A stretch of DNA of 64,000 bases from Silvibacterium bohemicum (GTDB lineage Bacteria > Acidobacteriota > Terriglobia > Terriglobales > Acidobacteriaceae): positions 408,231-472,230 of the forward strand of contig NZ_LBHJ01000012.1 of the NCBI RefSeq assembly GCF_001006305.1, written 5' to 3'. Within the stretch, counting starts at the first letter, position 1. Each line of letters opens with the position of its first letter. Made by a program: the position numbers and the translations under genes. The notes below the pieces were generated by a model. That model searched no databases. It had not been told where the DNA came from and was given only the letters and a program-made list of their open reading frames with translations. Below, one piece after another: positions 17,349 to 23,019 of the stretch.

Positions 17349-17975
17349 CTAGAGCTGGATAATCCCGCGGCGGACTCCGATGGCGACGGCCTCGGTACGA
17401 TCGCTGGCGCCGAGTTTTTCCATGATGTGCTTGATGTGCCCCTTTACCGTCTCTTCGGAAATAAAGAGGAGCGCCGCGATATCGATGTTTCGATTTCCCC
17501 CTGCGATCTTTTCCAGAACCTCGATTTCGCGCTTGCTCAAGGCTTCATGTCCGAGATGCTCGACGAGCTGTGCCGCAATCTCAGGCGGAATGTGTTTCTT
17601 TCCGGCGTGCACTTTGCGGATGGTCTCGACCAGCTGCTTCCTCGGAGTGCTCTTCAGTACGTAGCCGCGCGCTCCCGCCTCGAGTGCACGCTGAATCTCC
17701 ACATCTCCTTCGAAGGTGGTCAGCACGATCACCCGTGCTTCCGCGAATTCTGTGCGAATCGCGATCATGGCGTCGATGCCGCCAATGTCGGGCATGCGGA
17801 GATCCATCAGCGTGACGTCCGGCCGATGCTCGCGGAAGCTTGCGATAGCCTCATGCCCGCTCGCGGCTTCGCCTACCAGCTGCATGTCCGGCTCGTTGCG
17901 GATGACGGCTGCAATTCCTTCCCGCATCAGCGGATGGTCGTCGACACACAGAATTCGAATTGGAGAAGAGATCAT
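17349..17975 (-). CDS. NarL/FixJ-family response regulator
   Basis: Response regulator of 208 residues with an N-terminal receiver domain (acidic pair D12-D13, phosphoacceptor D58, T86 and K108 all present) and a C-terminal LuxR-type helix-turn-helix (ALSKREIEVLEKIAGGNRN, then EETVKGHIKHIMEKL). It should bind DNA as a phosphorylated dimer. It lies 2 bases after the stop of the propeller histidine kinase, which is almost certainly its partner. The gene's end abuts the DoxX-like gene on the same strand, a possible target or operon member. Confidence 0.95.
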   Translation of the reverse strand: MISSPIRILCVDDHPLMREGIAAVIRNEPDMQLVGEAASGHEAIASFREHRPDVTLMDLRMPDIGGIDAMIAIRTEFAEARVIVLTTFEGDVEIQRALEAGARGYVLKSTPRKQLVETIRKVHAGKKHIPPEIAAQLVEHLGHEALSKREIEVLEKIAGGNRNIDIAALLFISEETVKGHIKHIMEKLGASDRTEAVAIGVRRGIIQL

Positions 17976-17977
17976 TC

Positions 17978-20900
17978 TTAGCCACGCTTCTTTGCGATAT
18001 TTGCCGTTGTCTCGAACTTCTCCCGGCTCAGCCAGGGAAGCCAGGAGAATCTGGCGGTGTTGGGCTTGTCTGAGAATGCAACGGCCGCAGGAACGGACAG
18101 CTCGACCTCGGTCCCACTGCCGACGCGGCTGCGAAGCTTAAGGTTGGCGCCGATGCCCTCGGAGCGCTCGCGCATGCCTGCCAATCCCCAATGCCCCTCT
18201 CGACCGGCCTCCAGTACGCGGGCATCGATGCCGCAGCCGTCGTCGCGCACGAGAAGGCGGAAATGCCTGCCCGCATATTCTATTTCTATCTCGATCGAGC
18301 TTGCCTTTCCGTGTACGAACGCATTCACAATGGCTTCGCGTCCGATGCGGTAAACCTCGTCGCGAATCTGGTTGTGCAACGTGCGCACGGTGCCTTGCGT
18401 AACCACGCGATACTTGGTCTTTTCATCGATGTCGAACTCTCGCCGGATGCGCGCAAATGCAATTGCCAGGCTGTCGCCGTCCGCTTCCCGCGTACGCAGG
18501 CCGCGAAGCGCATTGCGGCCCTCTTCGATAACCTGCCGCATCAGTTGCAGTACGCGTGTCACCAGCGGCTTGGTGGGAGAATCCTCCGGCAGCTGGTCCT
18601 CGGCCAGATCGAGCTGCATGCAGGCGCTGAGCACGCCTTGCAGAAGCGTGTCGTGAAGCTCACGGGCGATGCGTTCCCGCTCTTCCAGGCGTTCTTCGAG
18701 CCGCATGCGCGTTTGATTGACGACATGCTGCACGCGCATGAGATAAGCCGCCCACAGCAGCAGAATCAGCGCGCTAGCGGCGGCTATCCGAAACCAGATC
18801 GTCTGATAAAAATAGGGGCGCTGCGTGACGCTGTACGAAATTCCCGTTTGATCCCAGACTCCATCGCTGCCGCTCGCCCGGACATGAAAGGTATGGGAGC
18901 CCACGGGAATATTCGTGTACACCGCGGTCCGCGAGGAGTCAGCGTCGAGCCATGCGCCATCGACGCCATCCAGACGATATTGCAGGCGCACCTTCTCCGG
19001 AGACGCAAGATCCACGGCCTCCAGATGAAGCTCGACGTGGTGAGTGCCCGCAGGCAGAATCAGCTCCGAGCCGACCGGCTCTTTGCGCTTTCCGACGGTA
19101 ATCGCTCCGACAAAGACTTTCGGCTTTCTCGCCGCCAGCGGCAGGCGGGCCAGATCGATCATCCCCAGACCCTTGACTGTCGCGATCCAGAGCTTGCCAT
19201 CCGATGCAAGGGCAATGTTCGGAGATCCCACGCTGCATTGAATGGAATTCATCCCATCGGATCGATCAAAGATGCGGTAATCAAGAGGGCTGTCGTGATT
19301 CTTTCCCGCATTCATCAAGTCCTCTCGGCCGATGCGGATGACTCCGTTATTTCCGCTGAACCATAGGTCGTGTTGCGGAGACTCGATCATGTGGAGAAGC
19401 TTCAGATCCTCGTTCACGGAGATCATTCGATCCTCTGCGATCAGGCTGATGCCTTTCGGTGAATTCAAGGTGTAGAGATTGCCGAGCGAATCCTCTGCAA
19501 ACTGGACGACAAACGGACCGTCGTTGGTTTGATTCGATGGAAACGGTCGAAAACGCTCCCCCGCGAGGCGATCGACACCTCCCTGTGTGGCTGCCCATAT
19601 CGCGCCCGAGTGATCCTGAAAGACGGAGAGAACCCGGTTGCTCGATAGCCCATCGGCCACCGTGTAGTTGTGGGAATGCCCATCCTGCATGTGGCTGATG
19701 CCGTCCGGCGTGGCGATCCATAGAGAGTTGTCGCGAGCCACGATAATTTGCAGCACGATCTTACTCACCAGCCCCTGGTCGACGGAGTATTGAACAAACT
19801 GTCCATCTCGAAATCGAAAGAGGCCGCCTCCGTAAGTCCCGATCCACAGATTGTTTTTCGCGTCCTCGGCAAGAGACCAGATGCAGGAGTTGATCAGGCC
19901 ATCTTTCTCGGCGTAAGTCTTAAATCCTTTTCCGTCGAAGACGGAAAGCCCGCAATTGTTGCCGACCCAGAGCTTTCCATCATGAGCGGGTAAAACGGCC
20001 ATGGCTACATCGTTCGGCATTCCGCTGGCCTGGGTAAACATCCGCACCACTCGCCGGCGCAGGTGAGCGAGCCCATAGCCGTTGGTGCCTATCCATAAAT
20101 CGCCGTTGCGGCCGGCATAAAACGACCGTACGTGGAGGCCGGGCGCGGGCGTGATGAGTCGATCGCCATCCACCAGGTAAACCCCGACGCCGGTGGCTAG
20201 CCAGATCCTGTCCTGATAATCCTGGTAGATCTGGAATGTTGCTGTCGTCTGCGGCCCCGAAGCTTGCAGTGGTATCGGAGACGACCCGCGCCAGCGCACA
20301 ACACCCCCGTTCGTGCCGTACCACGTTACCCCGCTGTGGTCCTGAAAGACGGTGAAGACCTGATCCTGATGAACGCCTACGCTGGCGGCGACCTCCGGGT
20401 GGTGGATGATTTGCTGTCCATCCCACTCGATGTATCCCTGCGCCGTGGTGAGCAGTATATGTCCATTCAGCGCCTCGGCAATGCGGTTGACAGACACTCC
20501 CGGTATAACCTCGACGAACTTGCCGGAGTCTCGCCGGTAGAGGCCGTGGTTGGTTCCGGCCCACACTGCTCCGTTGCGAGCCAGCAGCAGCGCCTGCACT
20601 TCATCGCTGGGTCCTGGGCCCAGGTGATAAAAGGTCAGCGCCGCAAGGTCGAATCGATCCAAGGCCGATCGCGGAAGAAATACCACCCCCGCATCGGTGC
20701 CCACCCAAAGATCGCCGTGACTGGATTCGGCCAGGGCATGCACCGCTCCCTGAGGCGGGGAGCCGCTGGCCCTGAGATCGATGGTCGTAAAGTCGCGCCC
20801 GTTGAAGCTGGCCAGGCCGGATTGCGTGCCCACCCAGAGCAAGCCATTCTCGGTTTGCAGAATGGCATTGATGACGTTGTCCGGAAGACCGTCTTCCACG

Positions 20901-21097
20901 GTGAAATCAGCCCGGATGTAGTCATCGGCAAGCGTGTCGGAAGCCTGCGCCAGCGCGGGGGGAGCAAATCTCATTGCCAGGATGATCAGGCCGAAGGCAA
21001 TCCAGGCGCAGCGGCCTTTGAGTCGGCTCGTCAGGCTTCGTCTGGAGCGCGATGCCCGCAGCGGCAAAACCCGGATGATTGGATGGATCGCTCGCAT
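17978..21097 (-). CDS. Two-component-propeller histidine kinase (HisKA_3 type)
   Basis: A 1039-residue membrane sensor kinase. After a signal or anchor helix (about residues 33-50) come many Reg_prop blades of the LLWVGTQSGL, VWAGTNHGL, LWIGTNGYG type, up to about residue 650, forming two beta-propellers, then a Y_Y_Y domain, one membrane helix (LILLLWAAYLMRV region) and the kinase core. The HisKA_3 motif (RERIARELHDTLLQGV) supplies the phosphorylated His, and the HATPase has its N and G boxes (EAIVNAFVHGKA, DDGCGID, GLAGMRER). It senses an extracytoplasmic signal, often glycans in related proteins, and passes phosphate to the regulator that follows 2 bases later. No strong Shine-Dalgarno precedes the ATG. 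Confidence 0.94.
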   Translation of the reverse strand: MRAIHPIIRVLPLRASRSRRSLTSRLKGRCAWIAFGLIILAMRFAPPALAQASDTLADDYIRADFTVEDGLPDNVINAILQTENGLLWVGTQSGLASFNGRDFTTIDLRASGSPPQGAVHALAESSHGDLWVGTDAGVVFLPRSALDRFDLAALTFYHLGPGPSDEVQALLLARNGAVWAGTNHGLYRRDSGKFVEVIPGVSVNRIAEALNGHILLTTAQGYIEWDGQQIIHHPEVAASVGVHQDQVFTVFQDHSGVTWYGTNGGVVRWRGSSPIPLQASGPQTTATFQIYQDYQDRIWLATGVGVYLVDGDRLITPAPGLHVRSFYAGRNGDLWIGTNGYGLAHLRRRVVRMFTQASGMPNDVAMAVLPAHDGKLWVGNNCGLSVFDGKGFKTYAEKDGLINSCIWSLAEDAKNNLWIGTYGGGLFRFRDGQFVQYSVDQGLVSKIVLQIIVARDNSLWIATPDGISHMQDGHSHNYTVADGLSSNRVLSVFQDHSGAIWAATQGGVDRLAGERFRPFPSNQTNDGPFVVQFAEDSLGNLYTLNSPKGISLIAEDRMISVNEDLKLLHMIESPQHDLWFSGNNGVIRIGREDLMNAGKNHDSPLDYRIFDRSDGMNSIQCSVGSPNIALASDGKLWIATVKGLGMIDLARLPLAARKPKVFVGAITVGKRKEPVGSELILPAGTHHVELHLEAVDLASPEKVRLQYRLDGVDGAWLDADSSRTAVYTNIPVGSHTFHVRASGSDGVWDQTGISYSVTQRPYFYQTIWFRIAAASALILLLWAAYLMRVQHVVNQTRMRLEERLEERERIARELHDTLLQGVLSACMQLDLAEDQLPEDSPTKPLVTRVLQLMRQVIEEGRNALRGLRTREADGDSLAIAFARIRREFDIDEKTKYRVVTQGTVRTLHNQIRDEVYRIGREAIVNAFVHGKASSIEIEIEYAGRHFRLLVRDDGCGIDARVLEAGREGHWGLAGMRERSEGIGANLKLRSRVGSGTEVELSVPAAVAFSDKPNTARFSWLPWLSREKFETTANIAKKRG

Positions 21098-21305
21098 GAT
21101 GAGTGGATTTCTTGCGGATACGACGAATCGTCATCGACAGAGTATCGGAAAACGCCGTCAGGAAGACCCTGGGCCTCGCCGATCTGGCTCATTTTCGTAT
21201 TCAGCCTGCGGAGGGTTTGCCGGTAGGACTGCAGCCGAGGTCGAGGAGGCAAATCGCTGCCGGCGTATTCAGTGGAGAATTCGCGGCGCAATTCGCCGCC
21301 TCTTT

Positions 21306-21788
21306 ATGATTGAGATGGCTGGATATCTGATGAACACACCGTATGATCTGACCCTTCTGGGGAGAATGACCGATAGCTATCGTCTGTTGACCGGCAAAGA
21401 ACTTTCACCCAAGGCGATGCCATCTGAAGAGGCGGCTCGCTGGCTTTATGAGGAGGCTCCTTTTGGCCTCCTGGCGCACAACACAGATGCCGACCCCAGG
21501 TTTATCTACGGCAATCGGGTTGCGCAGAGATGGTTTGGGTATTCCTGGGATGAGCTCATAGGCATGCCTTCGAGGCTTTCAGCCGAAGCGCCGGAGCGAG
21601 AGGAGCGCAAGCGGTTTCTCGACCTGGTCGCTCGACACGGTTTCGTGTCGGGGTATCGAGGCTTACGCATTGCGAAATCGGGGCAGAAGTTTTGGATCGA
21701 GGACGCGACCGTATGGCAGTTCCGGGACGCCGCCGGCCAAATCCAAGGACAAGCCGCATGGCTGCCGCTCAAGGTTGAGTGTGAATGA
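21306..21788 (+). CDS. MEKHLA-domain (PAS-like) protein
   Basis: About 160 residues, almost all a MEKHLA domain: SYRLLTGKEL, then AARWLYEEAPFGLLAHNT, FGYSWDELIGMPSRLSAEAPE, GLRIAKSGQKFWIEDATVW. This is a PAS-like sensing fold, named after plant HD-ZIP III proteins but found alone in bacteria. No output domain is attached, so it may bind a ligand or partner. The start is uncertain: ATGs at 21306, 21315 and 21330 are in frame and none has a clear ribosome site. It is divergent from the propeller kinase across 208 bases. Confidence 0.78.
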   Translation: MIEMAGYLMNTPYDLTLLGRMTDSYRLLTGKELSPKAMPSEEAARWLYEEAPFGLLAHNTDADPRFIYGNRVAQRWFGYSWDELIGMPSRLSAEAPEREERKRFLDLVARHGFVSGYRGLRIAKSGQKFWIEDATVWQFRDAAGQIQGQAAWLPLKVECE

Positions 21789-21876
21789 TTTTGTTGGGCT
21801 TGCTCGTTGCGCGAAATTGGGATTGAAGCGCGCCGATCTGGACTTGTTAAGACTCTGCCCATCGAAAGCGCAGCTT

Positions 21877-22386
21877 TCAATCCAAAGGGTGCTCTTTCCA
21901 TCTCTCAATCAACATCGCGAATTCCCGATAAACGGTCGGACCGACGCGTTCCTGAAGAATTTGTATAAAGGGGAATAGGAAAGCCCAATCTCGCAGTGCG
22001 TTCACGGCGTACATGCGGCGATAGGTTTGCTCATCAAAAGCACCTTCCCTAAGCCCTGTAGCCATAAACTCGTAGGAATTTAGAAGTGTAAGTACGGCCT
22101 GGCGGACAGGATCACCTTCATTGCCCACTCTGGCCAGATTGATGAAATCGAGTGGCGCGTGCCGGAGTGGGCGAATTACAGCCCGCGCCTTGATGAGCTC
22201 TTCATTTTTCATTTGGTCGCGCACACTATCTACCGTGGCACGCCTACGCTCCTGCTTTGCCGTTGAGCGTAAAGTCCAAATTGCAATGATCGCCGACGTC
22301 GCTAAGATCAAATTCTGAAGCCACAGTTCACCGAATATGCTGAACCATTTGTGTGCTTCTTGGGAGCAAGGAGCGGCTTGCTGCAC
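21877..22386 (-). CDS. DUF4760-like membrane protein
   Basis: A 169-residue protein with an N-terminal membrane helix (ELWLQNLILATSAIIAIWTL), then a charged helical cytoplasmic part (RRRATVDSVRDQMKNEELIKAR and on). The layout, and the middle and end, match DUF4760-like proteins, for which no function is known. It uses GTG and starts 6 bases after the stop of a tiny ORF that has a strong ribosome site, while its own start has none, so translation is probably coupled. The gene and the tiny ORF lie immediately downstream of tRNA-Ser, a classic insertion position, and their composition is less GC-rich than the neighbours by eye. Confidence 0.65.
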   Translation of the reverse strand: MQQAAPCSQEAHKWFSIFGELWLQNLILATSAIIAIWTLRSTAKQERRRATVDSVRDQMKNEELIKARAVIRPLRHAPLDFINLARVGNEGDPVRQAVLTLLNSYEFMATGLREGAFDEQTYRRMYAVNALRDWAFLFPFIQILQERVGPTVYREFAMLIERWKEHPLD

Positions 22387-22392
22387 GTCCGA

Positions 22393-22461
22393 TTAGTCTA
22401 CGATGCCGTCGTTATTCATATCTACAATGCCGTCGTTGTTCATGGCTGATCTTGTCCCCAT
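22393..22461 (-). CDS. 22-residue ORF with duplicated calcium-loop-like peptide
   Basis: ATG preceded by a perfect AAGGAGG (22470-22476) 8 bases upstream. After the first six residues (MGTRSA) come two copies of the octapeptide MNNDGIVD, then a stop. The two 24-base units differ at three positions only (AAC/AAT, ATT/ATC, GAT/GAC), all synonymous third bases, which suggests selection on the peptide. The junction reads DMNNDGIVD, matching the D-x-N-x-D-G loop of EF-hand or dockerin calcium sites. A possible promoter (GGGCAA and AATATA on the plus strand, 22545-22550 and 22524-22529) lies upstream. It leads into the DUF4760-like gene. I do not recognise it; roles as leader peptide, precursor peptide or metal binder are open. 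Confidence 0.6.
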   Translation of the reverse strand: MGTRSAMNNDGIVDMNNDGIVD

Positions 22462-22781
22462 AGTGAATTCCTCCTTGTAGACAACCCACACTAGACAGAT
22501 GGTATGAGCATTCTTAAAGATGCAATATACCCCAAATCAACTCTGGGCAACACCTTAAAGAGAGGTCTGCATTCGACCCTCTTCTTGGCCTATCGGCGGT
22601 TCCGGCTTTCTCGTTCAGGCGACGGCCCTTGCGGCTGCCACAAAGGCAAGTTTAGTTTATACCCATGTGCGGACAGGGACTGCCGGCACCGCTTTGGCGT
22701 TCATAATTCAAAACGCCGATACGGAATTAGCGCGACCCTCAAGGTAGCCCGTATGTTTATGATTAGAGATGGCTTATCGGT
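22462..22781. other. Intergenic, 320 bases between tRNA-Ser 3' end and the 22-residue ORF
   Basis: Apart from the ribosome site and weak promoter of the tiny ORF at its left end, I see no gene or repeat. A plus-strand frame running from 22504 through the tRNA is an artefact. Confidence 0.45.
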
Positions 22782-22871
22782 TGGCGGAGGGAGAGGGATT
22801 CGAACCCCCGTTACCCTTTCGGGTAAAGCGGTTTTCAAGACCGCCTGTTTCAACCGCTCACACATCCCTCC
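22782..22871 (-). tRNA. tRNA-Ser(UGA)
   Basis: 90 bases including an encoded CCA. The acceptor stem GGAGGGA pairs with TCCCTCC, the anticodon stem GCGGT/ACCGC encloses loop CTTGAAA with anticodon TGA, the long variable arm TTACCCGAAAGGGTAA marks a class II tRNA, and the T arm has GGTTCGAATCC. A possible promoter (TTCCAC and TATCAT, 18 apart) lies about 20 bases before the 5' end. Confidence 0.95.
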
Positions 22872-23019
22872 GCGGGTTTGGGTGGGGCTTAGGACCATGA
22901 TATGACGAATCATGATCCCCGTGGAATTGGAAGAATTTCCCGGCGGGAGCGTCCCCACTTCTGAATCTTCCTGCCTGCGAGTAGGATCGATAAAGAAGCA
23001 CTGTTTCGCACTTTATTCG

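Follow-up and report, generated by a model that had tools for sequence, protein, structure and literature searches.

A 22-codon open reading frame with an internal repeat lies just ahead of a gene for a predicted membrane protein in Silvibacterium bohemicum (Acidobacteriaceae), within a stretch of 64,000 nucleotides of contig NZ_LBHJ01000012.1 that we refer to, as a whole, as the window. Is so short a frame a gene, and if it is, what does its product have to do with the protein encoded behind it? The layout given by the original prediction was confirmed, with all elements on the minus strand: an AAGGAGG element 8 bases 5′ of an ATG, a 22-residue ORF, and a 6-base gap to a GTG-start gene (Table 1). 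This GTG is in the same frame as the micro-ORF, 6 bases past its stop. Terminator-like sites were searched for at window positions 21700-22900, and none were found. A MEKHLA-domain gene adjoins the pair; divergent from it is a long gene for a two-component propeller sensor kinase, with a response-regulator-like gene (the regulator being called by eye) behind the kinase gene.

Table 1. Features at and around the micro-ORF, in window positions.
Feature	Positions	Strand	Remarks
Shine-Dalgarno AAGGAGG	22476-22470	minus	8-base spacer to micro-ORF ATG (22461)
Micro-ORF MGTRSAMNNDGIVDMNNDGIVD	22461-22393	minus	22 codons + TAA (22395-22393)
First 24-base copy (MNNDGIVD)	22443-22420	minus	inside micro-ORF
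Second 24-base copy (MNNDGIVD)	22419-22396	minus	three silent differences from first copy; stop directly after
Intercistronic gap TCGGAC, 6 bases	22387-22392	minus	between micro-ORF and DUF4760 gene
DUF4760 gene, GTG start, 169 aa, phrog_2284-like	22386-21877	minus	N-terminal membrane helix, then helical domain
tRNA-Ser gene	22871-22782		directly upstream of micro-ORF/DUF4760 pair
MEKHLA-domain gene	20934-21788	plus	adjoins the pair
Two-component propeller sensor kinase gene	17349-21097	minus	divergent from MEKHLA gene

The protein behind the micro-ORF had been described as a DUF4760-like membrane protein without a ribosome site of its own, and this description held. It matches PF15956 over the whole profile but one position (E = 1.9e-30, 106.3 bits at a cut-off of 25, profile 2-141 of 141) and phrog_2284 of PHROGs (E = 1.2e-30, profile 16-166 of 169), its gene has no 4-base Shine-Dalgarno (SD) match of its own, and its N-terminus is a hydrophobic helix by eye. 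Both libraries model the protein alone, with no function assigned and no micropeptide. In an AlphaFold model (pLDDT 86.8), the membrane helix is continued by a long helix and a bundle of helices, and the domain would be cytoplasmic, to judge by the positive charges that follow the membrane helix. When this model was compared with the PDB, there was no match at E 0.001 (the best was 1.0, and weak HEPN rows were not significant), and a viral structure library gave one match at 8.9e-4, to a nameless entry.

DUF4760 is frequent in Acidobacteriota (111 of 396 sampled genomes), and its common type there starts near the domain and mostly lacks a membrane helix (29 loci, read by eye). The window protein belongs to a distinct, membrane-anchored type, whose members are found in phages, plasmids and scattered chromosomes. 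Strong matches of this type in the window's family occur in 3 of 398 sampled genomes (G000, G499 and G604), with three more weak ones, and there is no strong match in 8 other genomes of the same genus. The G499 locus was found among 200 genomes of the family, and its DUF4760 is 54% identical to that of another relative, L129; the G604 gene is identical to that of L130. A further genome of the family retains a 54-residue, apparently decayed remnant of such a gene (L409, G762:C186). Finding these relatives required alignments, since the window protein as a single query matched nothing in the genome contigs or viral contigs. tRNA genes closely matching the window's tRNA-Ser are present in at least three same-genus genomes without the pair, so the pair is accessory in the genus.

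The original prediction had proposed that the ORF encodes a real micro-protein linked to its membrane partner, which calls for related peptides upstream of DUF4760-like genes in relatives. All of the first six phage and plasmid homologues (6/6) have an SD-led micro-ORF upstream, and when the set was extended by fifty viral contigs and eleven named genomes, ten of the eleven genomes had such an ORF, the exception being L139. For counting, we defined a linked micropeptide as an SD-led ATG ORF of 6-30 codons that ends at most 200 bases upstream of the DUF4760 gene and has [DE][GEFT][WFYIV][DEVGT] within its last eight residues, a motif that was set after the first loci had been seen. By this definition, the window micro-ORF and those of 28 further loci are positive, making 29 of 31 non-redundant loci (90% identity clusters with enough upstream sequence), or 27 of 29 if L142 and L163, which were found via the micro-ORF itself, are left aside. 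By comparison, the same definition picked out 0 of 105 other ORFs at these loci (mechanically called from any M, at least 100 aa, not proven genes), 0.13% of 1550 shuffles, and 0 of 42 loci with other DUF4760 types. The latter are made up of 29 loci with the type common in Acidobacteriota and 13 that are divergent or additional, among them the second DUF4760 copy of the Silvibacterium genome itself; in three loci (L120, L121 and L127) the gene start is uncertain, and the upstream check may fall short of it. The peptide thus survived the comparison with relatives.

Without clustering, 64 of the 67 loci with 200 bases of upstream sequence are positive, out of 70 loci in total, and clustering at 50% identity leaves just 11 clusters. 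The two misses among the 31 are L139, which is the most distant member and has no such ORF, and L103, whose available sequence opens with the first bases of a DUF4760 gene that is disrupted, hence offers no upstream region to judge; over the 70 loci L098 is added. In L098, the end of a transposase-like gene sits between the place of the micro-ORF and DUF4760; in L272, an MKKMHDEFDGF micro-ORF is followed by the same transposase. These are P2-type pairs interrupted by insertion. Upstream sequence is lacking in L071, L083 and L099; the Acinetobacter cluster, represented by L071, was left out of the 31 for that reason, and its members L063 and L070 carry MKKTTNIILPTYPAMNEGWDF. The motif was then kept fixed for a further test, in which 4 of 8 new testable loci were positive (L415, L416, L417 and L422; the 8 are 12 loci less three already known and L425, which has no upstream sequence). 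The other four fail the motif and have an SD-led ORF with similar ends, REGWSY, DENDGF and twice DENDGY, a likeness seen post hoc only. A further locus, L403, is positive.

SD-led short ORFs without the motif are frequent, being found with 24 of the 105 control ORFs and 38% of the shuffles, so it is the motif that carries the evidence. Their frequency is what could favour the most sceptical reading, namely that the window holds a chance ORF over a meaningless 24-base repeat. However, the motif, its position and the silent-only variation described below recur across two phyla, which makes chance a very poor explanation. We are nearly certain that the module of micropeptide and membrane-type DUF4760 is real, and the window micro-ORF is very probably a genuine gene and one half of it. 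Judged by sequence comparison, its peptide is a member of a conserved family rather than a lone curiosity.

Across the family, the upstream micro-ORFs are SD-led, have 9-25 codons, and share a related C-terminus of acidic, glycine and hydrophobic residues, in forms such as EGWDF, EGWEV, DGWEDR, DEFDGF, NDGIVD and DGVVN. Between the end of this motif and the stop there are 1-2 residues; the N-terminal part, in contrast, is freely variable. Phages and plasmids encode MGKIYLEGWDF, MNLRDGWDDI, MKKVFDEFDGF, MKKMYDEFDGF, MMKQFNEGWEV and, as the end of a 22-codon ORF, MNEGWDF. Further examples come from Marinomonas (MFIKDGWEDR and MSIRDEWEDR), Idiomarina (MILRDGWEDI), Nitrotoga (MNHYFSDTWDD) and Snodgrassella (MSKRKIYSEGWDF), and from an Acidobacteriaceae MAG (MRNDGVVKVTLDGVVK), the nearest named relative by its DUF4760. 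In a tree of DUF4760 proteins, peptide type tracks clade, with EGWDF/EGWEV, DGWED-like, NDGIVD/DGVVK and DEFDGF each going with their own, and the window groups with L129 (support 99/93). The peptide seems to go with its DUF4760 partner rather than with the host, because L129 and L130 are both from Acidobacteriaceae and have different peptides and different DUF4760s: the L130 peptide is MKNADGYDG, and its DUF4760, whose placement is moderately supported, is distant from that of L129. The order and orientation of the pair, the amino-acid-level C-terminus and this tracking of DUF4760 subclades are, at the level of sequence, conserved properties.

The claim that two adjacent 24-base units differ only by three silent third-base changes was borne out, and all three changes are C/T. 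If single-base changes in the 24-base unit are equally likely and independent, one sixth of them are silent, and three of three silent has a probability of about 0.005, or 0.012 if transitions are weighted four-fold, again with independent substitutions. The heptapeptide NNDGIVD is encoded in the 6.46-Mb genome solely by these two copies, and the exact doubled peptide was not found in the viral contigs. With the discovery of the G499 micro-ORF MRMRDGVVNIGRDGVVN, three loci (the window, L129 and L403) all have two motif copies, eight residues apart. Matching core codons of the copies differ silently only, by 3, 2 and 2 changes, respectively; in L129 and L403 the comparison took just these cores, and the flanking residues of the copies differ. 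The joint probability of silent-only change in the three loci is about 2e-5, which is valid only under this choice of matching cores and again assumes equal, independent substitutions. Elsewhere, the motif is repeated at 9 residues in L081 (MSKSINEGWDGFSLNEGWEV) and in a weak or degenerate form in L136, and L061 and L067 have two tandem micro-ORFs.

The same pattern is seen in the P2 clade, where all 26 loci positive for the broad motif end in DEFDGF. This hexapeptide has nine DNA spellings, among which each of the six third positions varies and no other position does; strings for this count were drawn by DEFDGF codons, and a repeat without that choice agrees on the 26 loci. The silent-only variation, both in the repeats and in these spellings, suggests that it is the peptide, and not the DNA or RNA, that is under selection. 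What the peptide is selected for is a separate matter. The original prediction had noted a calcium-type D-x-N-x-D-G string at the junction of the two copies and listed a metal-binding peptide among its options. The string is indeed there, and it is shared with EF-hand and dockerin loops, but the 12-residue loop of an EF-hand would extend beyond the stop codon, and close relatives read RDGVVN and LDGVVK at this place, so that the loop is not kept. Metal binding is thus unsupported, and we give it almost no credence.

Between the micro-ORF stop and the DUF4760 start there are -4 to +10 bases in 15 of 17 scored non-P2 representatives, some of which overlap as TAATG. Wider gaps are found in L137 (17 bases), L132 (23), L062 (38) and L134 (58). 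In the P2 clade, the gap is 40-67 bases where the start was scored, except for 15 bases in L116, whose first start in frame probably lies too early. Among 23 scored DUF4760 starts, 11, including that of the window, have no 4-base SD match, while 12 have a match of 4-5 bases, mostly at a spacing of 9-16 and, by distance, mostly in the last codons of the micro-ORF. In frame in the window, the two genes do not keep this frame elsewhere, and we rejected stop-codon readthrough into DUF4760 as a rule.

In the explanation that we prefer, the micro-ORF is the first cistron and DUF4760 the second of a module carried by phages, plasmids and some chromosomes. In a first step, ribosomes would enter at the strong site of the micro-ORF, and its translation and termination would deliver them to the DUF4760 start. 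Such coupling is probable from the layout, with its -4 to +10 spacing in most non-P2 representatives. A weak site in or near the 3′ end of the micro-ORF, mostly at long spacing, precedes about half of the DUF4760 starts, and we rate coupling slightly lower for that reason.

In a rival explanation, a cis-acting leader, the conserved C-terminus of the nascent peptide would act in the ribosome, slow termination under certain conditions, and so control transcription or translation of DUF4760, with the released peptide being idle. Like leader peptides and attenuators, the window has a short SD-led ORF before a gene with a weak or missing site; the motif near the stop and the freely varying N-terminal part are as expected for a leader, and in the P2 clade a terminator-like hairpin was scored between the micro-ORF and DUF4760 in 6 of 8 representatives. 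On the other hand, the conserved amino-acid motif and its internal repeats are unlike leaders, and some motif copies lie well within the ORF, distant from the stop. The geometry is also variable (overlap, 6 bases, 17-58 bases, or 40-67 bases with a hairpin), there is no terminator-like site around the window pair (21700-22900), and no regulatory codon is common to all: W occurs in some clades and is absent from DEFDGF, NDGIVD and DGVVN. Nor did a scan of leaders from 11 sources give any Rfam family. (In L061 and L069, matches to Thr_leader and Phe_leader below the threshold lie at or behind the DUF4760 end. As a separate observation, sRNA-Xcc1 is found above the gathering score 3′ of DUF4760 in a Pasteurella plasmid record, L066:2102-2188, and in a viral contig, L078:3233-3317.) We consider the leader an almost equal rival of the antidote mechanism that forms the second step of our preferred explanation.

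In this second step, the peptide would also act in trans. Made in excess and short-lived, it would hold the membrane DUF4760 protein inactive; if host translation stopped, upon infection or damage, the peptide would decay before the membrane protein, and DUF4760 would then act on the membrane. Release of this kind would resemble that of phage exclusion or addiction modules. Similarities to membrane-effector toxin-antitoxin and phage-exclusion modules extend to gene order, with a small, better initiated gene first and the effector second, and to location on mobile elements and in a P2 hotspot. In P2-like prophages of Citrobacter and E. coli, the pair lies between the portal gene gpQ and a replication gene, a stretch described as a hotspot of anti-phage systems (Rousset et al., PMC9122126). 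Regions of the P2-type pair are matched in 286 of 5426 complete E. coli genomes, in 277 of them over at least 80% of the length.

The motif repeats, the variable distance to DUF4760 and the tracking of the partner by peptide type speak for a role in trans. Against an antidote we count the motif position 1-2 residues before the stop, which also fits a nascent-chain leader, the DEFDGF micro-ORFs with no DUF4760 behind them (see below), and the neighbours of the window and L403 pairs, which are ordinary chromosomal genes. Unlike known modules, the partner peptide here has 9-25 residues, and a PADLOC scan of the DUF4760 proteins from the window, L061, L064, L129 and L137 gave 0 matches. When peptide and protein were modelled with AlphaFold as one chain, tethered through the stop, and judged by block confidence and secondary structure, the peptide had a pLDDT of 52-57, no secondary structure and no sign of docking. 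The restraining peptide is accordingly a tentative part of our reading, and we put the explanation as a whole, including this step, at roughly 0.4. More speculative still, and in our view rather doubtful, is the idea of a general class of 9-25-residue antidotes to a membrane effector, in which the pair is a minimal sensor of translation shut-off and repeats tune its strength. If true, few protein antidotes would be shorter, and ordinary gene callers would miss peptides of this size.

Since short peptides of similar size are phage signals in other systems, a secreted signal or a regulated precursor, as in phage communication, was also considered. Secretion or modification, which the original prediction had included among its options, found no support: there is no export signal in the peptide (by eye), and no maturation gene, peptidase, receptor or regulator recurs beside the pair in seven annotated regions, so a role of this kind is very unlikely. 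None of these seven regions has the micro-ORF annotated; in E. coli EC958, for example (976494-977229; L065/L427), DUF4760 is annotated and the micro-ORF is not. With 9-12 codons, many members of the family are too short for a recent micro-protein survey, which, as described, covered 15-70 codons (PMC11188072). Literature searches on the motif strings and related topics returned titles and abstracts in which the pair is not described, and DUF4760 appeared, in the parts of the literature so searched, in one paper, as a single table row. In at least two phyla, and in phages and plasmids, the peptide family accompanies one type of a protein that is uncharacterised; the micropeptide is a first handle on DUF4760, and the pair is a candidate for the P2 anti-phage hotspot.

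Micropeptides of this class may also exist apart from DUF4760. Among 118 stretches with the DEFDGF pattern in viral contigs, 28 have DUF4760 behind them, and another 28 are short SD-led ORFs (40 codons or fewer) that have no DUF4760 within 900 bases. For the EGW[DE] pattern (25 stretches), 10 have an SD-led ORF with DUF4760, 8 the ORF without DUF4760, and 7, by a stricter rule, no such ORF. The unaccompanied ORFs, one of which is the repeat form MFDEFDGFDEFDGF, raise the alternative that the micropeptide stands alone and has its target in the host or phage, unconnected with DUF4760, which would be a downstream passenger. Acidic C-terminal tips dock on proteins, as in SSB, and the acidic, Phe-ended DEFDGF resembles such tips. 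However, of the 28 DEFDGF cases, at least 5 end within 250 bases and are not judgeable, one (L272) is the interrupted P2 type, and others overlap another frame. In addition, the last residue of many peptides linked to DUF4760 is D, K, N, R or G instead of Phe, and the association with one DUF4760 type is nearly complete. A peptide independent of DUF4760 is thus improbable, although better placed than the secreted signal.

Several of these unaccompanied ORFs can be described individually. Lambdoid-looking viral contigs (L182, L206 and L217, also L172 and L239) have SD-led MFDEFDGFDEFDGF, MLDEFEGFDEFDGF, MLDEFEWSDEFDGF and MLDEFDGF without DUF4760; some overlap another frame, and several are near lysis-type genes (by eye). 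Two large contigs of 163 and 173 kb (L228 and L195) have DEFDGF-type micro-ORFs, with MILDEFDGF and then MPCVLDEFEGFDEHPDF 5′ of a gene that we take to be primase-like, and MFSLRKFDEEDFEFFDEFDGF 5′ of a presumably SbcD-like gene. Finally, three closely similar Mu-like contigs (L143, L156 and L157) show, by eye, overlapping micro-ORFs before a hairpin, namely MMEGWDGF (MMESWDGF in L156) together with MDSEGWDF or MDSEGWDV.
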